From: Marinobacter sp. es.048
Lineage (GTDB): Bacteria; Pseudomonadota; Gammaproteobacteria; Pseudomonadales; Oleiphilaceae
Assembly (NCBI RefSeq): GCF_900188435.1
Contig: NZ_FYFA01000002.1
Span: 186,001 to 250,000, forward strand
DNA: 64,000 bases
Direction of reading: 5' to 3'
Numbering within the stretch: the first letter of the stretch is position 1; every line of letters begins with the position of its first letter. Positions 23,921 to 34,697 of this stretch are shown here, piece by piece. The notes beneath the pieces are model-generated. The model did no database searches, was not told the DNA's origin, and was given only the letters and a program-made list of their open reading frames with translations. Made by a program: the position numbers and the translations under genes.

Positions 23921-24229
23921 ATGGATTACGGAGATAGCGTTCAGAAGGTACTGCTGAGAAAAATTCGCAAAGCCGAGCAGGATCTGATTCAGTTGAAGCT
24001 GGATTACTGCCGGTTTGTCTTCGGATTGACTCACCGTACAAAAGTGCTGGCCGGCGGCATAACCTATGTGGTTCGTTCCGTGGATGTGGAAAGCATGGCT
24101 AATACCGATGATGGCGGGTTCAGCCGGCCCGAGATTACCGGTACCCGCGCAGACGAACAGGATCACGCCGAGCCGGTGGACCTTGGCACCGACTGGGTAC
24201 TTGAGACCGCACCGAAGCAGGCCAGGTGA
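23921..24229 (+). CDS. Small protein of unknown function
   Basis: The 102-residue soluble protein has an N-terminal basic helix (VQKVLLRKIRKAEQDLIQLKLDYCRFVFG), a short beta region (TYVVRSVDVESM) and an acidic, probably disordered C-terminus. I do not recognise a family. AGGGACAAC precedes ATG 23921; GTG 23918 is adjacent. It stands alone between the previous gene and the convergent selenium-locus transporter. Confidence 0.5.
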   Translation: MDYGDSVQKVLLRKIRKAEQDLIQLKLDYCRFVFGLTHRTKVLAGGITYVVRSVDVESMANTDDGGFSRPEITGTRADEQDHAEPVDLGTDWVLETAPKQAR

Positions 24230-24262
24230 ACCGTACTGGCCGTTAATGTATTTATTTCCTGA

Positions 24263-24379
24263 TCAGATTTTCTGATGGCTTGCAGCCAGGGGCTCTGAGC
24301 GGACCAGCGTGATCATCCGCACAGCCAGCAGGACAAGCAGGCCTACCTGAATAAAAAGAATCAGTCCGTTAACTATCAT
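24263..24379 (-). CDS. Possible 38-residue membrane peptide downstream of the transporter permease
   Basis: A short frame encodes MIVNGLILFIQVGLLVLLAV and a charged tail ending HQKI. One membrane helix spans residues 3-20. It begins 17 bases after the permease stop on the same strand, so it could be the last gene of the transporter operon. The ribosome site is weak (GAG about ten bases before the ATG), so it may be chance. Confidence 0.35.
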   Translation of the reverse strand: MIVNGLILFIQVGLLVLLAVRMITLVRSEPLAASHQKI

Positions 24380-24396
24380 CACCAGAACTCTGAGTG

Positions 24397-25863
24397 CTAG
24401 CAGGTGGGCATGGTCTGCAAGGCCAGCTTGCGGCGAATATAGCGACCAAGAATGTCTACGCCGATGTTCAGCATGGCGGTTATCAGGATCAGAACCATTG
24501 CCTGGTCGAACCGGATGCTCTGAATAGCGCTGTCAACGTAAAAGCCAAGGGTGTAGATGCCGAGAATACCGAGGATGGCGGTTTCTCTCATGATGATTTC
24601 CCAGCGATAAAACAGAAACGCCAGAAATGAGCGGTAGATCCGGGGCACGAGTTCCCAGCCATAGCGATTAAAGCCTGTGGGAGCATCGGATCTCAAACGG
24701 ATGGTGTTGGTTTGTCGGCCAATCAGGTGGCCTATGATGCCGCCATTGTGAAGCGCCAATGCAACTACAGCAGGCAGCATGGAAGGCCCCCACAGTTGCA
24801 GGAGAATATAGGCCAGGATGTATTCAGGCGTTGATCGGGCAATAACCAGGAAGACATGGCCGGAAGTCCGGCGAATCGGGCCACCAAAGTGATTTGAGAT
24901 CAGCGGGAACGCGAGCAAGGCAAGGATGCCTGTGGCCACCAGCGCAATCTGAGTAAGGATGACCGTATTCCAGATGCCCGGCAATGCCTGTTCGACCATC
25001 AGTTCATTCAGCCATGGCAGAAGGCCGGCCAGGCCCTCATCATCCCTCAGTGGGCTGGGCACGATATCTTCAGTGAAAAATCGTTCTACATTGCCCCAGA
25101 CGATGGGCAAACCATCCCCGAGGAAGAAAGGAGCGCCCAGAATATACACGGGTAGCAGTTTGGGTTTTACCCATAGAGGGATGGTGGCAATGAGCACGTA
25201 GAACATTATCAACATCGCACCGGCATCGGAGTACATGCCCTGCGAAAAAGACGTTTCCAGGTAGAACCCCAGAGTGGGCAGGCCAACGAAGCCGAGAATA
25301 GCGCTCGACCGAAGCCCGCATTCCAGACGATAGGCGGTGTAGGTTCTCAGCTGGACCCAGCAATCAGGAATTCTGGTGTAGAGGAATGCGGCGATGGTCC
25401 CTGTGCCCGGAGGCAACAGCCGGCCTGGTTCCGGATCGGCTTCCTCAAGAATCTCGGAGTAAACCTTGGCGAAAATGCCGGAGTAGGGTATTGCGATCGC
25501 CAGCACGCCCGTCAGGGGATGGAAGCCGAAGAACTGCAGGAAAATCAGTGCCCAGAATAGCTCGTGAATCGCCCTGATGAACGCGCAAAAAATGCGCACC
25601 GGGAGAAATCGGTACACCAGTGCCAACAGAAATCCGCAGATAGCACCAACCGTTACGCCAACAAATGCAAAGGCCACGGTTCGCAGCAACGCTGTAAGAA
25701 GCCCCTCGCTGCTGAAGAAATTAGGCGTAAGAACACCCAGGAAGAAGTTGCCAAGGTCCCGCCAGGGATTGTTGGCGGTTATCGCTATATCAGCAAAAAG
25801 GAGTCCCACGAGCGCAATGGCAAGAAAGATCAGGCTGGTGCGAACCGTTGGGTAGGAGAGCAT
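24397..25863 (-). CDS. PhnE-type ABC importer permease, two modules in one chain; likely selenium oxyanion
   Basis: The 488-residue protein contains two copies of a PhnE-like permease module. The first runs to about residue 240 (FGFHPLTGVLAIAIPYSGIFAKVYSEILEEAD is its cytoplasmic EAA-type loop); the second spans about 280-480 (LPAVVALALHNGGIIGHLIGR, RETAILGILGIYTLGFYVDSAIQ). A single PhnE is normally about 260-290 residues and works as a dimer, so this chain is probably a covalent dimer. It completes an importer with the ATPase at 25878-26528 and binding protein at 26528-27394. Selenium genes next door suggest a selenium substrate. Confidence 0.78.
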   Translation of the reverse strand: MLSYPTVRTSLIFLAIALVGLLFADIAITANNPWRDLGNFFLGVLTPNFFSSEGLLTALLRTVAFAFVGVTVGAICGFLLALVYRFLPVRIFCAFIRAIHELFWALIFLQFFGFHPLTGVLAIAIPYSGIFAKVYSEILEEADPEPGRLLPPGTGTIAAFLYTRIPDCWVQLRTYTAYRLECGLRSSAILGFVGLPTLGFYLETSFSQGMYSDAGAMLIMFYVLIATIPLWVKPKLLPVYILGAPFFLGDGLPIVWGNVERFFTEDIVPSPLRDDEGLAGLLPWLNELMVEQALPGIWNTVILTQIALVATGILALLAFPLISNHFGGPIRRTSGHVFLVIARSTPEYILAYILLQLWGPSMLPAVVALALHNGGIIGHLIGRQTNTIRLRSDAPTGFNRYGWELVPRIYRSFLAFLFYRWEIIMRETAILGILGIYTLGFYVDSAIQSIRFDQAMVLILITAMLNIGVDILGRYIRRKLALQTMPTC

Positions 25864-25877
25864 TGAATCGATGAATC

Positions 25878-26528
25878 CTAATAAAGCGACATGATGTCTG
25901 CGGCTGCCAGCCTGTCACTGGCCTCATCCAGGGTTATCTGCCCATCCTGGATGCCAACGATTCGGTTGCAGTACTTCATCGCCATTTCAACGTCGTGCAG
26001 CGCAATCACGCTGGTTTTGAAGCGCTCCTTGAGCAGTTGCATTACGTGATGCGCCATGGGGTCATCCAACGCGGAGATCGGCTCATCAGCAAGTAATACA
26101 GGCGCGTTGCGATACAGGGCTCTGGCAATGGCTACCCGCTGTCGCTGGCCACCGGAAAGGGAGGCCGTGGGAATCCACAGTTTCTCCGACATTGTGAGTG
26201 CGTCCAGCAACTCTTCAACCTGCCTGCGATCCTCTTTGAACGGGCGAATGAGCGTGATGGTGTTGTACCAGGTGGAATGCTTGTCCAGCTGCCCCATAAA
26301 CACGTTATGAAATACGGGCAAGGCGCTTACCAGGCCGAGATCCTGGGGAACCAGGGAAGACTCCCGGTTGACCCTTTGATGGATAAGCCGGATCAGAGTG
26401 GACTTACCGGCGCCACTCTTTCCGACCAGAGCGACCTGATCTCCTTCTTTTACATCAAGGGCAACGGGTCCAATGACCCGTTGACCCCCAAAAGATGCCG
26501 TCAGGCCTGAGAGTTCAAACCCTGCCAT
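25878..26528 (-). CDS. PhnC-like ABC importer ATPase
   Basis: This compact 216-residue ATPase has Walker A GKSGAGKST near residue 36, signature LSGGQRQR, Walker B VLLADEP and a switch His in IALHDVEMAMK. The block SLVPQDLGLVSALPVFHNVFMGQL is typical of PhnC-type proteins. It is shorter than PhnC of phosphonate systems (about 260). ATG 26528 overlaps the binding-protein stop (TGATG), so translation is coupled; a TTG one codon earlier is less likely. Confidence 0.85.
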   Translation of the reverse strand: MAGFELSGLTASFGGQRVIGPVALDVKEGDQVALVGKSGAGKSTLIRLIHQRVNRESSLVPQDLGLVSALPVFHNVFMGQLDKHSTWYNTITLIRPFKEDRRQVEELLDALTMSEKLWIPTASLSGGQRQRVAIARALYRNAPVLLADEPISALDDPMAHHVMQLLKERFKTSVIALHDVEMAMKYCNRIVGIQDGQITLDEASDRLAAADIMSLY

Positions 26529-27394
26529 CAATCAATGATTCCGATTTCTTTCGCGACTTTGCGAATCGGCTCATAATCGTCGTTTGAGGCGGGAATAAAT
26601 GCAGAACGTGGGAAGCTCTCAAGCAACTCGGGATCATCAAGCGCGAGCAGGGCCTCACGGATGCGATCGGTAAAGCCCTCGCCGTAGTTTTCATCCACGT
26701 CGCCACGAATGCTCCACTGATAATTCGGGAAGCCGGGTGTCTTCCAGATGACCTTCACAGCGTCGGTATTAATGTTTCCGTTTTCCAGTTCTTTTTCCCA
26801 GACCGCGTAGTTCATCGCGCCCACTTCATAGGTGCCGGACTCGACCAGACGTAGGGTGCGAGTATGGTTGCCGCTGAAGCCGACTCGGGAAAAGACATCC
26901 TCGGGTGCTTCTCCAAACGTCTCGCGGATGTGGTACTCGGGAATCAATCGCCCGGAAGTTGAGCCCTTTGATCCGAAGGTAAAGGTCTTGCCACGTACGT
27001 TGTCCGGCAGGTTGTCCTGACGATCCAGGCCGGTGCTCTCATGAGCAATAAAATAGACATAGAAGGCCTGATCTTCGGTGCCCTGCGCGATTGCCTGCGA
27101 TCCGGGGACGAGTGATCTCGCCTGAACGCCGGACAGACCGCCAAACCACGCCAGTTGCACCTGGTTGTTCCGGAATGCAGAAACGGCAGCTGCGTAGGAC
27201 TTGACGGGTATGTACTTCACATCGGCATCCAGTTCCTCGGACAGGTAGTCCGCTATGCCCTGGAAGCGCTCCACGAGTTTGGTTTCATCCTCGTCCGGAA
27301 TCGCGGTGAAAATGAACGTTTGGGCAGAGGCAGTGGCTGCAAACAGAGAACAGAGACCAATAACCAGTAATTTCCGTATAAGATGGTGGGTCAT
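26528..27394 (-). CDS. PhnD-like periplasmic binding protein; putative selenate/selenite ABC importer
   Basis: The 288-residue protein has a signal peptide cut near residue 24 (LFAATASAQT). The mature part has the PhnD-like pattern FTAIPDEDETKLVERFQGIADYLSEELDADVKYIPVKSYAAAVSAFRNNQVQLAWFGGLSGVQAR and GRLIPEYHI. It captures a small oxyanion for the importer. I recall a subfamily of PhnD-like proteins found near selD and named putative selenate binding proteins; the SelD and SenB-like genes next door fit that view, but phosphonate or phosphite cannot be excluded from sequence. AAGGAAAAACC precedes the ATG. First gene of a three-gene operon. Confidence 0.75.
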   Translation of the reverse strand: MTHHLIRKLLVIGLCSLFAATASAQTFIFTAIPDEDETKLVERFQGIADYLSEELDADVKYIPVKSYAAAVSAFRNNQVQLAWFGGLSGVQARSLVPGSQAIAQGTEDQAFYVYFIAHESTGLDRQDNLPDNVRGKTFTFGSKGSTSGRLIPEYHIRETFGEAPEDVFSRVGFSGNHTRTLRLVESGTYEVGAMNYAVWEKELENGNINTDAVKVIWKTPGFPNYQWSIRGDVDENYGEGFTDRIREALLALDDPELLESFPRSAFIPASNDDYEPIRKVAKEIGIID

Positions 27395-27476
27395 GGTTTT
27401 TCCTTGTTGAATCGGATATTTAACGAGCGGAGTCTGATCAAGCGACTCCTGTTACAGAAGGATACCTGTATTCGCG

Positions 27477-27504
27477 TTAACTCTGAACAGCTATACGGTA
27501 TAAG
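27477..27504 (+). promoter_or_regulatory. Probable sigma-70 promoter for the SenB-like gene
   Basis: -35 TTAACT (27477-27482) and -10 TATAAG (27499-27504) are separated by 16 bases. The -10 overlaps the inverted repeat TATAC-G-GTATA (27492-27502), which could be an operator. The region is shared with the divergent importer operon. Confidence 0.4.
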
Positions 27505-27549
27505 GATTTAATTGGCTCAGGGCGGCACTTTTCGTTTCAGGCGGTTGCG

Positions 27550-28536
27550 ATGCATTTAATCCTGATCACACCGGCGAAGCCGGATTCCAAAGCTGGAAAC
27601 AGGGCCACGGCAGAACGCTGGAAAGGCCTGCTGGAAACGGCCGGGCACTCGGTTGATGTCGTTACTCATTATCACGGTGAGGCCTGCGATGCGTTTATTG
27701 CGCTCCACGCATGGCGCAGTTTCGATGCCATCCGACGTTTCCGGGAAACCTGGGCCGAAAAGCCGCTGATTGTGGCGCTGACCGGCACGGACATCTATCA
27801 CCATCAGCACGAGTACCCGGAAGACACCCTGTATTCCATGGACGTGGCGGATACACTCATCGGCCTGCATGACCTTGTCGCCGAAGACATACCCGCCTGT
27901 TTGGCCGGCAAGCTGGTTACGCTACACCAATCGGCCGACGCGCCGGAATCCTTTCCAGCGCCCGCCGCGGATGGCAGCAGCGAAACGTTTGGCGCATGTG
28001 TGATCGGCCATCTGCGGGACGAAAAGGACTCCCTGCGGGCGGCCTATGCAGCGCGATTGCTGCCGGAAGACTCGCGTGTCCAGGTTTTCTGCGCCGGCAA
28101 GGCCCACAACGAAGAGTGGCAACGCAAAGCCGAGCAGGAAATAGCGGAGAACCCACGCTTTCACTGGCTCGGCGAATTGGATAAAGCCGACACCCGACAG
28201 TTGATGGTTAACAGCCAGGTGATGGTGATCAGCTCGATAATGGAGGGCGGCGCGAACGTTGTATCCGAGGCCTGCCGGGCTGGCTTGCCGGTATTGGCAT
28301 CCGATATCCCGGGAAATGTCGGTTTGTTGGGACGGGACTATGCCGGATATTCCCCCGTTGGGGACGAACAAGCGCTGGCCGATCTGCTTCACCGCGCAGA
28401 GACCGATACCGCGTTTCTCGCTTCTCTTAAAAAACAGGTGGGCAAGCTCGCCGAACGTTTTCTGCCAGAAAAGGAGCAGGCATCCCTGGAGCAGGCGCTA
28501 CAGCTTGCGGTGCAGCGCTGCTCAGAGAGACGTTAG
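27550..28536 (+). CDS. senB: SenB-like selenosugar synthase (glycosyltransferase family 1-like)
   Basis: The 328-residue protein matches the SenB family in its landmarks: TPAKPDSKAGNRATAERW at residues 8-25, DAFIALHAWRSFDAIRRFRE near 50, LIVALTGTDIYHH near 75, and the GT-B donor block SSIMEGGANVVSEACRAGLPVLASDIPGNVGLLG near 235. SenB joins selenophosphate to a UDP-sugar (UDP-GlcNAc or UDP-Glc in studied enzymes) to make a 1-selenosugar, the precursor of selenoneine. The convergent neighbour encodes SelD, which makes the selenophosphate it would use. SenA, which adds the sugar selenium to hercynine, is not in the window. The stop overlaps the selD stop. Confidence 0.75.
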   Translation: MHLILITPAKPDSKAGNRATAERWKGLLETAGHSVDVVTHYHGEACDAFIALHAWRSFDAIRRFRETWAEKPLIVALTGTDIYHHQHEYPEDTLYSMDVADTLIGLHDLVAEDIPACLAGKLVTLHQSADAPESFPAPAADGSSETFGACVIGHLRDEKDSLRAAYAARLLPEDSRVQVFCAGKAHNEEWQRKAEQEIAENPRFHWLGELDKADTRQLMVNSQVMVISSIMEGGANVVSEACRAGLPVLASDIPGNVGLLGRDYAGYSPVGDEQALADLLHRAETDTAFLASLKKQVGKLAERFLPEKEQASLEQALQLAVQRCSERR

Positions 28537-30809
28537 TCCCGCAGGGAAATGGGCTCGATCGGGCCGGTCTCATCCTGGGCCGTAATTCGCCCGATGATAG
28601 CAGTGTGCGGATAACCCAGGGTTTTCAGTTCCCGTACACATTCTTCCGCCTTGTCCGCGGCGACGCTTGCGAGCAGACCGCCCGCCGTTTGCGGGTCAAA
28701 GATCAGGGGAAAACGGGCATGATTAACCCACCTTTCCTGATCCCGGATACCGCGGCGCAATCGAATGTTTGCCGGTTGAAGCGAACTGAGAATCCCTGCT
28801 GCTGCTGTTTCCTCCGCGCCGGGGAGGATCGGGATAGCAGAAAGATCCAGCTCGGCATCGACGCCCGAGGGTTTGGTCATTTCAACGAGATGCCCGAGCA
28901 GGCCGAACCCGGTGACGTCTGTACAGGCTTTGGAGCCGAACTTCCGGAGACAGTCCGCTGCCACCTTGTTGGACTGAACCATGGAGGCCAGGGCGGAATC
29001 GATCCACCGGCCTTTGGCGGCCAACTTTGCGTGGGCGGCGAACAAGGTGCCGGTGCCTATGGGCTTGGTGAGAATCAGCGCGTCTCCGGCTTTCAGTCCA
29101 CCCTTGCTCATGACTTCTTCCGGGTCGATCAAACCGTTCACCGCGAAGCCCAAGGCAAGCTCCTTGCCCTCACCGGTGTGTCCACCTACAAGCGCGCATC
29201 CGGCTTCGTTCAGGACTTCCACGGCACCGGACATCATCTGGTAGACCACGTCCTCAACCTTCGATTCAATGCCGTAGGGCACCGTGGCAACGGCCGTGGC
29301 ACTCTGTGCCTCGGCACCCATGGCAAATACGTCACCCAGGCTGTGGTTGGCCGCAACCTTGCCGAAGATAAAAGGGTCATCAATAAAGGCGCGGAAAAAA
29401 TCCACGGTGTGAACAACGGCCTTGCCCGGGGGTACTTTTAAAACGGCAGCATCGTCCGGGGCGTGGAGGCCGATGAGGATATCGTCCCGCTCGATGGGCT
29501 TGAGTTCGCCCAATGCCTGCGAAAGAACGGTGCTGCCCACCTTGGCTCCACAACCACCACAACGCATGGCGACCGCCGAGATCGCCTGGGATGCTTCCTC
29601 GGCGTTCTGGGCCGCGGCGGTATCCGGTAGTTTGGATTCTCCCTCCATGGGAGGCAGATCGTTGAATTTCCCCATGAACCGGCGATCAATCCAGTCCTTC
29701 CAGCGCCAGACGAGGGCGCCATCAAACTGCATGTCTCCTCGGGAGGCGACGGCATACTTATCGCCAGTGCTGATCAACGCCAGCCATTTTTTCTGGGGGT
29801 AGAAATCTCTCGGATCCTTGCCGGTCGCCAGACGCTTGAGATTGTCGGCCAATGGAGGACCTTGCCTCACCGCGAACACCCCCGCTTTTTCGCGGGGGTG
29901 GTTAAGCACATTGGCGATGTCGCCAGCGGCGAAGATGCTGTCGTCGTTCTCAACCTGCAAGGTATCGCGTACCCGCAGGAACAGCCCGTCGTCCAGAGCA
30001 AGGCCAGTGTCTTTCAACCATTCCGGACCACCGGCTCGGGTCACCCAGAGCACTTCGTCCGTTTGTAGCGTTTCTCCGCATTCGGTAATCAACAACCCTT
30101 CCTGAACCTTGCTCACGGGAGATCCGAGGTGGACCTTCACACCGCGATCCGACAAGGTCTTTCGGAAAACCTCACGAACCTTCGGATTGTGAGTCGGAAG
30201 GATTTCGTCTGCGGCGTCAAAGAGGTGAAAGTGAAGCTGGCCCGGGTCTTTGCCCCGCTGCTTCAATTCTTTCTTCAGGCGGAACTGCATCGCCAGGGTG
30301 AGTTCCACGCCGCCAGCGCCGGCCCCGACTACAGCCACAGTCAGTGGCCCATCGTGGTTTTCAATACGGGAGAGCAGGGCAAGCCAGCGGTTATTGAACC
30401 CGGTAATGGGCTTTACCGGTACAGCATGGTCTGAGGCGCCCTCCACTTCATTGACCCGGGGCGAGGAGCCAATGTTGATGGAAAGAATGTCGTAGGGCAC
30501 ATCCGGACGGCCACGGCAGATAACTCGCTTGCGGTCACGGTCGATGCCCATGGCCTCGGCACGATAAAACCGGGCGCCTGCGTATTCGGCCAGACGGCTC
30601 AAGTCGATGTGAACATCATCGTAGCTGTAATGGCCGGCCACGTAGCCAGGCAACATGCCGGAATAGGGGGTGTGGGTGTCGCGGCAGATGAGGGTCAGGC
30701 GCACGCCGGGAACCGGGTTCATGGCGAACCGTTTAAGTACCCCGACGTGGCTGTGCCCGCCGCCAATCAGGACAATGTCCCGTAATACAGGCTGGTCAGG
30801 CGCTCGCAT
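28533..30809 (-). CDS. selD: Fused FAD-dependent oxidoreductase / selenide-water dikinase (SelD)
   Basis: The protein has 758 residues in two parts. The N-terminal 370 residues are an NDH-2-like pyridine nucleotide oxidoreductase (FAD motif GGGHSHVGVL near residue 12, NAD motif VVGAGAGGVE near 155, FAAGDIA). The C-terminal part, from about residue 410, is SelD: catalytic Cys420 and Lys423 in MRCGGCGAKV, GLVGGHTGEG-type ATP site (VGGHTGEG) and CTDVTGFGLLGHLVE. SelD makes selenophosphate from selenide and ATP; the oxidoreductase part may supply selenide by reducing a selenium species. The ATG overlaps the stop of the upstream coiled-coil/HhH gene (TGATG). No selenocysteine is present at the active site. 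Confidence 0.93.
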   Translation of the reverse strand: MRAPDQPVLRDIVLIGGGHSHVGVLKRFAMNPVPGVRLTLICRDTHTPYSGMLPGYVAGHYSYDDVHIDLSRLAEYAGARFYRAEAMGIDRDRKRVICRGRPDVPYDILSINIGSSPRVNEVEGASDHAVPVKPITGFNNRWLALLSRIENHDGPLTVAVVGAGAGGVELTLAMQFRLKKELKQRGKDPGQLHFHLFDAADEILPTHNPKVREVFRKTLSDRGVKVHLGSPVSKVQEGLLITECGETLQTDEVLWVTRAGGPEWLKDTGLALDDGLFLRVRDTLQVENDDSIFAAGDIANVLNHPREKAGVFAVRQGPPLADNLKRLATGKDPRDFYPQKKWLALISTGDKYAVASRGDMQFDGALVWRWKDWIDRRFMGKFNDLPPMEGESKLPDTAAAQNAEEASQAISAVAMRCGGCGAKVGSTVLSQALGELKPIERDDILIGLHAPDDAAVLKVPPGKAVVHTVDFFRAFIDDPFIFGKVAANHSLGDVFAMGAEAQSATAVATVPYGIESKVEDVVYQMMSGAVEVLNEAGCALVGGHTGEGKELALGFAVNGLIDPEEVMSKGGLKAGDALILTKPIGTGTLFAAHAKLAAKGRWIDSALASMVQSNKVAADCLRKFGSKACTDVTGFGLLGHLVEMTKPSGVDAELDLSAIPILPGAEETAAAGILSSLQPANIRLRRGIRDQERWVNHARFPLIFDPQTAGGLLASVAADKAEECVRELKTLGYPHTAIIGRITAQDETGPIEPISLRD
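29877..29900. other. Perfect GC hairpin inside the selD coding region
   Basis: CACCCCCGC and GCGGGGGTG form a perfect nine-base stem with loop TTTTTC. It codes for part of the oxidoreductase half (around HPREKAGVF). No T-run follows, so it is not a typical terminator; it may slow translation at the mRNA level or be chance in a GC-rich gene. Confidence 0.45.
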
Positions 30810-31477
30810 CAGCTAATTTTCTTGGCTTCAGCGGTAAATTGGCTGTATCCCTTAACGCTTGAGAAGGCCTTCAGCTTTTCCAGGTCTTCTGCAGACGGAT
30901 TGGCGATCTGGTCGATTGACGTAATGCCAGCATCTTTCATCTTCTTGGCGGTTGCCGGTCCGATGCCTTTAACCAGCGTCAGGTTGCTCTTGTCAACTGG
31001 CTTGGCAGTTTTTGCCGCTGGTGCTTTCTTGGCAGCGGGCTTCTTCGCGGCTGGCTTCTTGGCCGCAGGCTTGCTGGTCGACGCTTTTGCCTTAGAGGCC
31101 TTTTTAGCGCTTTTCTTCGGGGCGGATTTCTTGGCGGCGGTGCTGGCTTCTTTGCTTACTTCATCGGTGAGTTTCTTAACCTCCTCACCCGCCTCCTTGG
31201 AGGCCACACCCAGTCGCTCCAGAACGCTGCTCTGCAGTTCGTGGAATTCCTCAAGGCGGCGTTCAAACTCTTCGTGGAAACGCTTCATCTCACGATCGCG
31301 AAGTTCGTCAATTTCCTTGAGCAGCTTGCGCACCGGCTCCTGAACCTGATTCTGCAAGCTGTCGAACTGCTTCAGCGCATCGTTCACCAGACCTTCGATC
31401 TGGGAAGAAGTCTTTTCGAACTCCTTGTTGACCTTTTTGACGATCTTATCAACGTTCTGTTTGGCTTTCTTCGCCAT
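30809..31477 (-). CDS. Coiled-coil protein with Lys/Ala-rich linker and C-terminal helix-hairpin-helix
   Basis: The 222-residue protein has three parts. Residues 1-105 form a charged coiled coil of phasin-like character. Residues 110-160 are a basic linker of repeated KPAAKKPAAKK units like histone H1 or PhaF tails. Residues 163-222 are a helix-hairpin-helix domain (LTLVKGIGPATAKKMKDAGITSIDQIA) of the DNA-binding type. Together they suggest a DNA- or nucleoid-associated or PHA-granule protein. AAGGAGACATTCC precedes the ATG. Its stop overlaps the selD start, so translation may be coupled. No direct selenium role is visible. Confidence 0.7.
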   Translation of the reverse strand: MAKKAKQNVDKIVKKVNKEFEKTSSQIEGLVNDALKQFDSLQNQVQEPVRKLLKEIDELRDREMKRFHEEFERRLEEFHELQSSVLERLGVASKEAGEEVKKLTDEVSKEASTAAKKSAPKKSAKKASKAKASTSKPAAKKPAAKKPAAKKAPAAKTAKPVDKSNLTLVKGIGPATAKKMKDAGITSIDQIANPSAEDLEKLKAFSSVKGYSQFTAEAKKIS

Positions 31478-31518
31478 GGAATGTCTCCTTACGGACAGGT
31501 TTCAACAAAAACTCAGGG

Positions 31519-31917
31519 TCAGGCCATCTGCCGGAAACCGGAAATGGAGCCTGGGGAACGACGTGATTTGAGTGACTGCTTTTTCGATACCACTTCCCGG
31601 ATTCTGCGGAGCTTTTCCGCCAAAGAGGAACTCCCGTTGGAGTCGAGTTCCACAAAATCGATGGAATAAAAGAAATTGCTGCAATGTTTTCTGCGTTCGG
31701 TTACCAGGCCAGAGAGGCCTTCCGCCCGGATCTTGTCAAACGGCATATCCATGATCAGGTCCAGTACCACGGTATCACCGGGATTGAACACCTTGTCGGT
31801 TTTCATAACACACCCGTAACCGTCCAGTTCGTAAAGGGCGGCCTCGACAAGTTCCTTACGGAAAAGGCCCTGTCTGACGCGGAATCTGGCGACAAGATCC
31901 GGCAATGCTTCGTTCAT
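31519..31917 (-). CDS. PilZ-like domain protein
   Basis: The 132-residue protein has a PilZ-like barrel pattern: RQGLFRKELVEAALYELDGYGCVMKTDKVFNPGDTVVLDLIMDMP, followed by a strand-rich region ending CSNFFYSIDFVE. The canonical RxxxR and DxSxxG c-di-GMP motifs are not clearly present, so binding is doubtful. The C-terminus is basic. It lies 41 bases upstream of the coiled-coil/HhH gene and may be the first gene of the unit leading into selD. Confidence 0.5.
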   Translation of the reverse strand: MNEALPDLVARFRVRQGLFRKELVEAALYELDGYGCVMKTDKVFNPGDTVVLDLIMDMPFDKIRAEGLSGLVTERRKHCSNFFYSIDFVELDSNGSSSLAEKLRRIREVVSKKQSLKSRRSPGSISGFRQMA

Positions 31918-32089: not shown

Positions 32090-33610
32090 TTACTTTGTTT
32101 TCAACTCGTACATATCAACTCGGCGATCTTTCAGGTTGGTGACAGAGCCTTCGTTGCGCACCAGCTTCAACTTCTCCAGATCCATATCGGAGAACATGAT
32201 CATCTCTGTATTAGGCGTCGTTTCGGCCATCACCGCATCGTGGGGGAAGGCGAAATCCGAAGGCGAAAACACTGACGATTGGGCGTACTGAACGTCCAGG
32301 TTTTCGACTTTCGGCAAGTTACCGACACTGCCGGTGATTACGACGTAACATTCATTTTCGATTGCCCGCGCCTGGGCACACTGGCGAACCCGAAGGTAGC
32401 CGTTCTTGGTGTCTGTCCAGAAGGGAACCATGATGATATCGACTTCCTGACTGGCAGCGATACGCCCCAACTCCGGGAACTCAATGTCATAGCAGATCAT
32501 GATGGCAACCCGGCCGGCATCGGTTTCGAAAACCTCAAACTGGTTGCCGCCCTCAATAACCCAGTCGCGACGCTCGTGCGGCGTAATGTGGACCTTGCGC
32601 TGCTCATCCACGCGGCCATCCCGGTGGCAGAGGTAGGACACGTTGTATACCCGGTCATTCTCGATCAGCGGCATGGAACCGGTGATGATGTTGATGTTGT
32701 AGCTGACTGCCATTTCGGACATTTCTTCACGGAACTGCTGGGTGAACCCGGCAAGGAAGCGGATGGCCCGGGTCTGGTCCATCTGATCGGTCAGGCCCAT
32801 CAGCGGCGCGTTGAAAAATTCCGGAAAGATGGCGAAGTCGCTCTTGTAGTCGGACAAGGCATCAACAAAGTATTCAACCTGCTCAAGCACTTCTTCAACC
32901 GAGGTAAACTCACGCATTTGCCACTGAACGGCGCCAAGCCGCACCTGGGTTTTTTTAACGCTCAGAACCGGTGAGGGCGGGGTATAAAGAATGTTCCGCC
33001 ACTCAAGAAGTGTCGCGTAGCCCTGGGATTTTTCATCCTCCGGCAGATACTTGTGCATCAACCGGGTAACCTGGAAGTCGTTCGACAGCTGGAAGCTCAG
33101 GATAGGATCGTAGATTTCCTTCCGGTCTACCCGCTGAATGTACTCTTCCGGGGAATACTGTTCAGCGTACTTGAAATAGCTCGGTATGCGGCCGCCGGCG
33201 AGAATGGCCCTCAGGTTCATGGAGCGACAGAGTTCTTTTCGCGCTTCATAGAGCCGGCGGCCAAGGCGATAACCCCGGTAGTCGGGATGGATGAAGACAT
33301 CCAACCCATAGAGAGAATCGCCATTGGCGTTGTGCCAGATCTTCTCGTTCCGGAGGATCAGGTCGTCATAGGTGTGCGGGTTGCTGAAGCGCTCGTACTT
33401 CACGCATACAGTAAGCGCGACCGCAATGAGCTGCCCACTCTCCTCAATGCAGATCTGGCCGTCCGGGAACTGTTCCACCAGCGCCTTGATGGTGTCTTTG
33501 GGCCAAGCGCCTCCGATGTCGTCGTACACCCGGTCCATAAGCTTTTGAAGCTGTTCGTAATCTTCAAGCTTCAGGTTCCGGAGGTTGAGGTGCAGTTCTT
33601 CATGGGCCAT
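32090..33610 (-). CDS. Fused GNAT acetyltransferase / carbon-nitrogen hydrolase
   Basis: The 506-residue protein joins two enzymes. Residues 8-180 are a GNAT domain (LDVFIHPDYRGYRLGRRLYEARKELC is the acetyl-CoA loop). Residues 225-500 are a nitrilase-type hydrolase with the catalytic Glu in FPEFFNAP, Lys in RKVHITPHE and Cys in ICYDIEFPEL. Fusions of this kind are known in many bacteria; the substrate is not established. GGGAG precedes the ATG. It is separated from neighbours by gaps of about 140-170 bases, so it is likely monocistronic. Confidence 0.87.
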   Translation of the reverse strand: MAHEELHLNLRNLKLEDYEQLQKLMDRVYDDIGGAWPKDTIKALVEQFPDGQICIEESGQLIAVALTVCVKYERFSNPHTYDDLILRNEKIWHNANGDSLYGLDVFIHPDYRGYRLGRRLYEARKELCRSMNLRAILAGGRIPSYFKYAEQYSPEEYIQRVDRKEIYDPILSFQLSNDFQVTRLMHKYLPEDEKSQGYATLLEWRNILYTPPSPVLSVKKTQVRLGAVQWQMREFTSVEEVLEQVEYFVDALSDYKSDFAIFPEFFNAPLMGLTDQMDQTRAIRFLAGFTQQFREEMSEMAVSYNINIITGSMPLIENDRVYNVSYLCHRDGRVDEQRKVHITPHERRDWVIEGGNQFEVFETDAGRVAIMICYDIEFPELGRIAASQEVDIIMVPFWTDTKNGYLRVRQCAQARAIENECYVVITGSVGNLPKVENLDVQYAQSSVFSPSDFAFPHDAVMAETTPNTEMIMFSDMDLEKLKLVRNEGSVTNLKDRRVDMYELKTK

Positions 33611-33755: not shown

Positions 33756-34697
33756 CTAGCGGCCGAGCAGGTCGAGGCGCCGGCGCAGGTTTTCCAGTGT
33801 GCTGCGCCCCACATGGCGGGATTCCTCACTCAGGAACGGGTTTTCGAGGGCAATGACCCGGCGCGTTTTGAGGTTGAGAGCTTTGACTGCGTGGGCGTAA
33901 TAGTTGCGGAGGAACTCGCTGAAACTTCCGTCGTGAAGGGCGCGCTCAATCCCCAACTGCAAACGATGGGCGGTCTCCTGATCGTCAGGGCCGACAAAAA
34001 GATAGGATGGCATGGGGTAGGCGATCAAAAGATTGGGTTCGATCACAAGGTTCGGTTCCTGCTCCATTTCCAGATCGTACAGGACTTCACTGACACCGCG
34101 GGCGAAACAATCAAAGCGTTCGTTACGGAGCATCCCGAACAGTATCTCGTATCGGGAGTGGGTCACTACCGGAACACCATTTGCCTCCAGCACCGGCGTG
34201 TCCGGCCAGTGAGAGCCCTGACCGATCCAGATCTGACTGGCTTGAAGGTCATCCAGATTCTTAATGTCTGCGAACTTCGGTAGGGATTCCGGCAAAACCA
34301 CGCAGACCCTGAAACCCAGAAGGCCGCCATCAACCGGGAAGGGAATTGCGGTCAGAAACTCCTCCCGCTCGGCCGAGGTGGCCACATTGGCAATATCAAC
34401 CAGGCGGGATTGGCCATCTGTCAGTTCGCGAAGCACCCGGCCCTGGCTCAACTCTTCGCTTCGGATAATCCGGAAGTCGCCATACTCCGGGGTCTTCTTC
34501 AGGGCCAGCTCTACGAGCGCCCGAATGGCCGGGCTGTCAAAGTTGCGGTACCAGAGTACATAATCACGGCTGGTAATTTGCACTCCGTCCGTGGCTGACA
34601 ACGGTGCAGTAAAAAGACAGAGGCTCAGAATAGCGAAACGGAAAACCAGTTTCCGGAGCCGGTAGCAGGCCACTAAAGCGGGCATAGAACATTCCAA
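33756..34697 (-). CDS. Periplasmic binding-protein-like protein (SBP family 3-like)
   Basis: The 313-residue protein has a signal peptide (FAILSLCLFTAPLSAT, cut near residue 36) and a bilobed fold of the extracellular solute-binding type 3 group (GLLGFRVCVVLPESLPKFADIKNLDDLQ, then GVPVVTHSRYEILFGMLRNERFDCFARGVSEV). Basic, helical C-terminal residues follow. No transporter gene is adjacent, so it may be a sensor-like or orphan binding protein. The start is TTG 34697 with AAAGGA eight bases upstream; ATG 34685 is the alternative. Confidence 0.65.
   Translation of the reverse strand: MECSMPALVACYRLRKLVFRFAILSLCLFTAPLSATDGVQITSRDYVLWYRNFDSPAIRALVELALKKTPEYGDFRIIRSEELSQGRVLRELTDGQSRLVDIANVATSAEREEFLTAIPFPVDGGLLGFRVCVVLPESLPKFADIKNLDDLQASQIWIGQGSHWPDTPVLEANGVPVVTHSRYEILFGMLRNERFDCFARGVSEVLYDLEMEQEPNLVIEPNLLIAYPMPSYLFVGPDDQETAHRLQLGIERALHDGSFSEFLRNYYAHAVKALNLKTRRVIALENPFLSEESRHVGRSTLENLRRRLDLLGR

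Follow-up and report, generated by a model that had tools for sequence, protein, structure and literature searches.

A selenium locus of Marinobacter sp. es.048 as the probable supply half of an ovoselenol pathway completed elsewhere in the genome

Ovoselenol is 5-selenohistidine methylated on its ring; as the product of the OvsA pathway it is in keeping with the names OvsA and OvsM in the Protein Data Bank (PDB). Its discovery was reportedly made by Kayrouz et al. (2024, Nat Chem), and the selenoneine cluster senABC is said to have been described by Kayrouz et al. in 2022. Here, we analyze a five-gene locus at positions 24397-30809 of a 64,000-nucleotide stretch of Marinobacter sp. es.048 DNA (the window, G000:C2:186001-250000; G, C and L numbers denote genomes, contigs and loci). 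The genome comprises 4.06 Mb in two contigs and is 99.98% complete. The genes of a permease, an ATPase, a binding protein, the selenosugar synthase SenB and a fused selenophosphate synthetase (Ndh-SelD) fill this interval. The reading frames of all five lie where the original prediction had placed them, and family models confirmed SenB, the Ndh-SelD fusion and the binding protein.

The ovoselenol genes of Vreelandella (Halomonas) utahensis and the window locus have a common order of permease, binding protein, SenB and Ndh-SelD, and the window's genome encodes an OvsA orthologue; there, by contrast, ovsA lies on the other contig, no OvsM adjoins it, and an unlinked methyltransferase of the OvoM type is present. 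With selenoneine senABC the locus shares the partners SenB and SelD (SenC), but the genome has no SenA as judged by its active-site triad, and EgtD was not found in it. The binding protein belongs to the family TIGR04553, which includes picocyanobacterial PhnD1 (7s6g, 5lq5), and shares the STS-His-Tyr pocket with PhnD1; its neighbors are SelD and SenB, whereas the published neighbor of picocyanobacterial phnD1 is tesA (PMC10284923). The ovothiol enzymes OvoA and OvoM are represented by the methyltransferase family TIGR04345 and by an OvoA encoded in the genome; unlike in OvoA, the methyltransferase in question stands alone, and it follows OvsA rather than OvoA.

From gene content, co-occurrence, linkage and the active-site triad, we conclude that the locus is very probably one half of an ovoselenol pathway, covering uptake, activation and sugar transfer, while the genes for the final steps are located elsewhere in the genome; the reactions, substrates and products named here are predictions. 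Because a likely OvsA is encoded on the other contig, the locus would represent the supply half of a known antioxidant pathway and not an orphan. In the proposed sequence of events, the PhnDCE-like importer would bring in a selenium oxyanion, selenite and selenate being equally good guesses. The oxyanion would be reduced to selenide, possibly with the help of the Ndh domain, and SelD would, as known for its family, make selenophosphate, which MnmH would also use for selenouridine. Family knowledge and conserved residues suggest that SenB would transfer the selenium to a UDP-sugar, giving a selenosugar whose selenium OvsA (G000:C1:1060009-1061379) would join oxidatively to histidine. Finally, an OvoM-type methyltransferase (G000:C1:164160-164912) may methylate 5-selenohistidine to ovoselenol in place of OvsM, as suggested by the alternative distribution of the two enzymes.

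Two enzymes of the PF03781 (FGE-sulfatase) type are encoded in the genome: one is the bifunctional OvoA, and the other is a protein of 457 residues at the ovsA position given above, on the contig that does not carry the locus. Compared with PDB chains, the latter matches OvsA (8u41, 'Selenoxide synthase OvsA') at E 1e-196, EgtB (4x8b) at 2e-53 and SenA (8k5i) at 6e-50. It is 61% identical to V. utahensis OvsA, which in turn differs from the crystallized 8u41 at 8 of 448 residues (98% identity, counted by eye). The enzyme carries the OvsA triad, Met407-Gln436-Ala437, along with three histidine ligands. This Met-Gln-Ala combination is found in all 13 aligned sequences of at least 55% identity and again in 99 of 99 OvsA sequences (97 of the 108 Marinobacter OvsA genes and 2 from outside; among the 11 omitted are those of G348, G356 and G384, which are split or cut). 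It is found in none of 38 SenA-like sequences of 36-50% identity, all of which have Tyr-Asn/Thr-Phe/Tyr instead, and one EgtB-like sequence (31% identity) stands apart from both groups. The printed alignments of PDB entries 8ux5 and 8u41 differ at just the three triad positions, and we read 8ux5 as an engineered triad swap of 8u41. The 457-residue protein is most likely OvsA, the ovoselenol synthase. In two single-contig assemblies ovsA occupies two frames (G348:C1:3806910-3808240 and G356:C1:3879413-3880647), with normal SenB scores.

SenB and OvsA have the same distribution. Across 124 Marinobacter genomes, both occur in the same 108 and both are absent from the other 16, of which G355, G363 and G365 are only 62, 58 and 82% complete. 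Across 293 genomes of the order, SenB exceeds its cut-off in 16, and an OvsA query at E 1e-60 matches the same 16. On an OvoA tree of 26 genomes, seven of them lacking SenB and OvsA, the starred branches force at least three changes of the joint SenB/OvsA state, so a single event does not explain the co-occurrence if the tree follows descent. That tree, made of G387 and 25 of the 37 genomes with a full-length OvoA frame, serves only as a proxy for the species phylogeny, and the OvoA gene could itself have been transferred.

Physical linkage is seen outside the genus. In V. utahensis (L168), PhnE and solute-binding protein, SenB-OvsA-OvsM, and Ndh-SelD form one cluster, and in Cocleimonas (L181) OvsM, OvsA, SenB and a SelD lie together. 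An OvsA-like gene is found near senB in 33 of the 37 loci L172-L208; by identity and triad, 32 of these genes are SenA-like and one (L181) is OvsA. We compared the best 80 of 295 SenB loci of named genomes. Of those 80, 42 are from Marinobacter, and ovsA appears in none of the 42 within flanks of at most 10 kb a side. The order permease, binding protein, SenB is kept in 42 of 42, and Ndh-SelD comes next in 32. Weighing against the proposed pathway are the ten remaining loci, in which Ndh-SelD is not beside senB (L142, L144, L145, L146, L148, L150, L151, L153, L157 and L158), and the position of both ovsA and the methyltransferase away from the locus in the window's genome. Ndh-SelD is not beside senB in G005 (L103) and G263 (L114) either, though SenB and OvsA are present; a SelD beside mnmH in G005 was considered and rejected, as none lies in the 16 kb around mnmH.

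The enzymes for activation and sugar transfer are well supported by their families (Table 1). Window SenB matches the PDB SenB chains 8fbx and 8jjq at E about 1e-46 and is up to 86% identical to its named Marinobacter relatives. Twelve residues of V. paradoxus SenB (N20, T23, H58, R61, T83, T85, D86, R155, K158, E231, H235 and E239) were scored by eye in an alignment to 8jjq, a chain with numbering that agrees with that of the V. paradoxus protein. Eleven are identical in window SenB, and H235 is replaced by Asn. Among those kept are K158, to which PMC10891094 assigns Se-P cleavage in V. paradoxus SenB, and N20, T23 and E231, which it assigns to the sugar donor. V157 of the V. paradoxus enzyme, which contacts the N-acetyl group, is a Glu in the window, and this may favor UDP-glucose as the donor. 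Family membership and conserved residues suggest that window SenB is a selenosugar synthase acting on selenophosphate and a UDP-sugar. The Ndh-SelD chain passes both TIGR00476 and TIGR03169 ('Nterm_to_SelD'), and its score for TIGR04369 ('fusion_not_SelD'), 475.3, is below the cut-off of 700. The 3' ends of senB and the Ndh-SelD gene, which lie on opposite strands, overlap.

Table 1. Features of the locus, with positions in the window and supporting model scores.
Feature	Position	Strand	Evidence
Fused double PhnE-like permease, 488 aa	24397..25863	-	TIGR01097 in two stretches, 203.8 bits, under equivalog cut-off 216.7; relatives keep order
Short PhnC-like ATPase, 217 aa	25878..26531	-	PF00005 84.4 bits; TIGR02315 169.6 bits, under cut-off 266.1
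PhnD-like periplasmic binding protein, 288 aa, TIGR04553 'putative selenate'	26528..27394	-	428.8 bits, cut-off 250
Divergent intergenic region between importer and senB, 155 bp	27395..27549	.	Coordinates of flanking frames
SenB selenosugar synthase, 328 aa	27550..28536	+	TIGR04348 407.9 bits, cut-off 300
Ndh-SelD fusion, 758 aa: pyridine nucleotide-disulfide oxidoreductase domain and selenophosphate synthetase	28533..30809	-	TIGR03169 505.2 bits (cut-off 310); TIGR00476 301.7 bits (cut-off 125)

The three transport genes probably encode a selenium importer. The permease and the ATPase fail the equivalog cut-offs of the phosphonate transporter models for PhnE and PhnC, and the Walker A, Q-loop, signature and Walker B motifs of the ATPase are legible by eye in the translation. 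By eye, its stretch from Walker A to the Q-loop is about 25 residues shorter than in PhnC; many relatives of the protein align over nearly its full length. Across the order, 81 of 293 genomes exceed the TIGR04553 cut-off, compared with 0 of 14 controls (also 0 of 14 at E 1e-55), a far wider spread than that of SenB. We inspected 22 importer loci outside the genus, a hand-picked spread from 71 TIGR04553-matching genomes in which some loci end at contig ends, and in 13 of them SelD and/or MnmH lie no more than about 6 kb away. In G161 (Marinobacter) and G204 (same family), which lack SenB and OvsA, Ndh-SelD and the importer are kept in the same order. The importer thus goes with SelD and MnmH rather than with SenB; being more widespread than SenB and near SelD or MnmH in 13 of 22 loci, it is tied to selenium and not to ovoselenol. 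Selenite shares the trigonal shape of phosphite and would be a fair candidate substrate beside selenate. PMC13188914 states that a specific system for selenium transport with high affinity has yet to be identified in prokaryotes, and our literature search for a PhnD-type selenium transporter gave no PhnD or PtxB case among the matches listed.

In the most serious competing account, the substrate of the importer would be phosphite, phosphate or methylphosphonate, and its proximity to selD and senB would be incidental or a matter of phosphate balance. We consider this unlikely, though several observations speak for it and thereby against a selenium importer. The best PDB relatives of the binding protein are the PhnD1 chains 7s6g and 5lq5, which themselves score 334 and 297 bits in TIGR04553 (cut-off 250), and PMC10284923 reports that PhnD1 proteins of Synechococcus have a higher affinity for phosphite than for phosphate or methylphosphonate. 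The pocket of the window protein equals that of PhnD1 save for T65 to Ser, S123 to Gly and D203 to Asn. Of these, the D203 position is variable within the genus (of 54 Marinobacter sequences, drawn from 12 genomes and 42 named loci with some strains represented twice, 34 have Asp and 20 have Asn), and D203-to-Asn was rejected as a selenium signature. The pocket residues therefore do not separate the window protein from the phosphite- and phosphate-binding PhnD1, and the residue comparison that the original prediction had proposed does not settle the substrate, because the pocket is nearly shared. In addition, 9 of the 22 outside loci show neither SelD nor MnmH in the stretch covered. On the other side stand the 13 outside loci with SelD and/or MnmH, the 32 of 42 Marinobacter loci with SelD, and the family name 'putative selenate' given by the curators at NCBI. 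PMC10284923 also reports that Synechococcus WH8102 and MITS9220 are unable to use phosphite as the only phosphorus source and proposes a constitutive phosphate transporter for PhnD1; its main text contains no word starting with 'selen'. Selenium uptake, activation and sugar transfer, as originally proposed, thus hold for activation and sugar transfer and probably for the importer; as to its substrate, the related PhnD1 proteins of the same family bind phosphite and phosphate in vitro.

The candidate for the final methylation is a stand-alone relative of the C-terminal domain of OvoA (TIGR04345), without a sulfoxide synthase domain. Two types of such enzymes occur in OvsA-bearing Marinobacter genomes. 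The linked type, defined by a distance of less than 500 bp from ovsA and found 14-50 bp from it, is present in 34 of the 108. The unlinked type, defined by at least 66% identity and a frame of less than 400 residues, is present in 66, including the window's genome; no genome has both (a partial sequence in G348 was set aside). Eight genomes have neither type: in four of these the stretch covered shows no more of OvoA than its methyltransferase part, and four have a full OvoA. Among the 16 genomes lacking OvsA, the unlinked type occurs in one (G363, 58% complete), full OvoA in seven and no family member in eight. OvoA itself does not follow OvsA, being present in 30 of 108 OvsA-bearing versus 7 of 16 OvsA-lacking genomes (Fisher p 0.24, a test that ignores descent). 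Because the linked and unlinked types are distributed as alternatives, a methyltransferase of the sulfur pathway appears to have displaced OvsM.

Phylogeny is consistent with such a replacement. In a tree of 43 methyltransferases (41 hand-picked from 147 Marinobacter sequences and two from outside), the linked type groups with the OvsM proteins of V. utahensis and Cocleimonas with 100/100 support. The unlinked type falls on the OvoA side, also with 100/100, and the OvoA of G004, which lacks OvsA, lies inside it. On the OvsA tree, which was built from the same 99 OvsA sequences as the triad count, the type of methyltransferase changes at least three times. Five genomes lacking OvsA (G004, G382, G341, G321 and G357) have a full OvoA whose methyltransferase domain, at 68-69% identity, is as near as the unlinked type. 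In the simplest account, an OvoA-derived methyltransferase would have taken the place of OvsM; in these five genomes that methyltransferase either still belongs to a full OvoA or has come to do so again.

Alternatively, the unlinked methyltransferase could belong to ovothiol, with the function of OvsM supplied by OvoA's own domain or dispensable. By its sequence the unlinked enzyme would be called OvoM: the protein in the window's genome is nearer to OvoM (9bxl, 260 bits) than to OvsM (9bxh, 217 bits). OvoA is encoded in the same genome, so that an unlinked methyltransferase could serve ovothiol. The equally near full OvoA proteins of the five genomes, with that of G004 inside the unlinked type, and the four OvsA-bearing genomes with full OvoA only, point the same way. 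Moreover, the V. utahensis and Cocleimonas sequences form long branches in both the methyltransferase and the OvsA trees, and their placement is unsure. All of this counts against a role in ovoselenol formation. We nevertheless judge the ovothiol assignment to be rather improbable. The unlinked type is present in 66 of 108 genomes with OvsA versus 1 of 16 without it and never together with linked OvsM; in 44 OvsA-bearing genomes it is the sole family member at E 1e-40; and in four OvsA-bearing genomes OvoA is represented, within the stretch covered, by its methyltransferase part alone.

Ovoselenol also has to be weighed against selenoneine, in which case SenB would feed a true SenA elsewhere in the genome and hercynine would be imported or made by an unknown route. 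The NCBIfam SenA model NF041186 does assign the name SenA to the 457-residue enzyme (426.3 bits, cut-off 420), and a SenA-like gene stands beside senB in all five SenB-bearing genomes of the order outside the genus, where senB, the SenA-like gene and the importer adjoin. However, V. utahensis OvsA also passes this model (427 bits), and therefore the model does not tell OvsA from SenA; a third OvsA, that of Cocleimonas (L181), scores 414.7 bits, under the cut-off. EgtD is the source of hercynine. No match to it (PF10017) was found in the window's genome. We surveyed 80 genomes for EgtD, namely 58 of the 108 OvsA-bearing Marinobacter, all 16 lacking OvsA and 6 from outside. It was not found in 47 of the 58; its presence in the other 11 is a point against the ovoselenol reading. 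All five outside genomes with a linked SenA-like gene have EgtD, directly beside that gene in three. With OvsA by far the best PDB match, a triad that is not that of SenA and no EgtD found, selenoneine was rejected as the product and is a distinctly improbable outcome of this locus. The original prediction had offered selenoneine with senA elsewhere, a free selenosugar or a compound of unknown kind; given the OvsA triad and the failure to find EgtD, each is less likely than ovoselenol. In one Marinobacter genome, G317 (L249, L282 and L283), OvsA and a linked OvsM occur alongside a SenA-like gene of 45% identity, an EgtB-like gene and EgtD, and this Marinobacter may make both selenoneine and ovoselenol. 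In a literature search for ovoselenol in Marinobacter, which did not reach the ovoselenol discovery paper, no match names Marinobacter.

That the locus serves tRNA selenouridine only, its selenosugar being unused or stored, is the least probable account of all: MnmH was found in 25 of 29 genomes searched, one of which is the window's genome, and G161 and G204 keep SelD and the importer without SenB, but selenouridine alone would leave the agreement of SenB and OvsA in 124 of 124 Marinobacter genomes unexplained. The MnmH/SelU protein is encoded at G000:C1:901145-902134 (357.4 bits, cut-off 219.75). With MnmH and OvsA as end users in the genome, an orphan selenosugar pathway was rejected. The end users had been predicted to be absent, and this is true of the window, in which whole-genome searches gave no match to PF03781 (the SenA/EgtB type), MnmH/SelU or EgtD; it does not extend to the genome. 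SelB had no match over the cut-off in the whole genome (best score 182.6 versus 242.25; 2 of 14 control genomes exceeded the cut-off), and SelA was not searched for. The genome-wide search that had been recommended for senA- or egtB-like genes, egtD, selB and selU thus yielded OvsA, under the name SenA, and MnmH, but neither egtD nor selB.

Further observations concern the surroundings of the locus. A promoter scan of positions 24100-31600 gave one sigma-70-like match, at 25891-25918, outside the 155-bp divergent gap, with 3.0 matches expected by chance. A 506-residue protein at 32090-33610, whose C-terminal part is nitrilase- or amidase-like and whose NCBIfam matches are all far under the cut-offs, is more than 90% identical in all 10 Marinobacter loci where it is covered. 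The 313-residue frame at 33756-34697 resembles, by eye, a periplasmic solute-binding protein and has no Pfam or NCBIfam match at E 0.001. Glycosyltransferase matches of identical score, 55.6 bits, lie close to an end of both contigs (G000:C1:2376307-2376786 and G000:C2:4749-5228), which suggests an overlap between the contigs or a repeat that they have in common.

The pathway is a known one; what is new is its arrangement, with the likely replacement of an enzyme. The locus offers an importer candidate that adjoins selD and senB, in a genus of which strains are in culture, and G161 and G204 provide genomes with the importer and SelD but without SenB and OvsA. For annotation, the name SenA also covers OvsA, so that selenoneine would be predicted where ovoselenol is likely; an annotated SenA in a genome without EgtD should be re-read as a possible OvsA. 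The methyltransferase provides a case of a pathway enzyme seemingly replaced by its sulfur counterpart. We propose tentatively, and with somewhat less than even confidence, that the PhnDCE system of TIGR04553 is a dedicated importer of selenium oxyanions and that, in 66 of the 108 OvsA-bearing Marinobacter genomes, an OvoA-derived methyltransferase took over the last step of ovoselenol formation. If so, the puzzling PhnD1 of picocyanobacteria would find a new explanation as well, with selenite as a shape mimic of phosphite, and the sulfur and selenium pathways would exchange a finishing enzyme.

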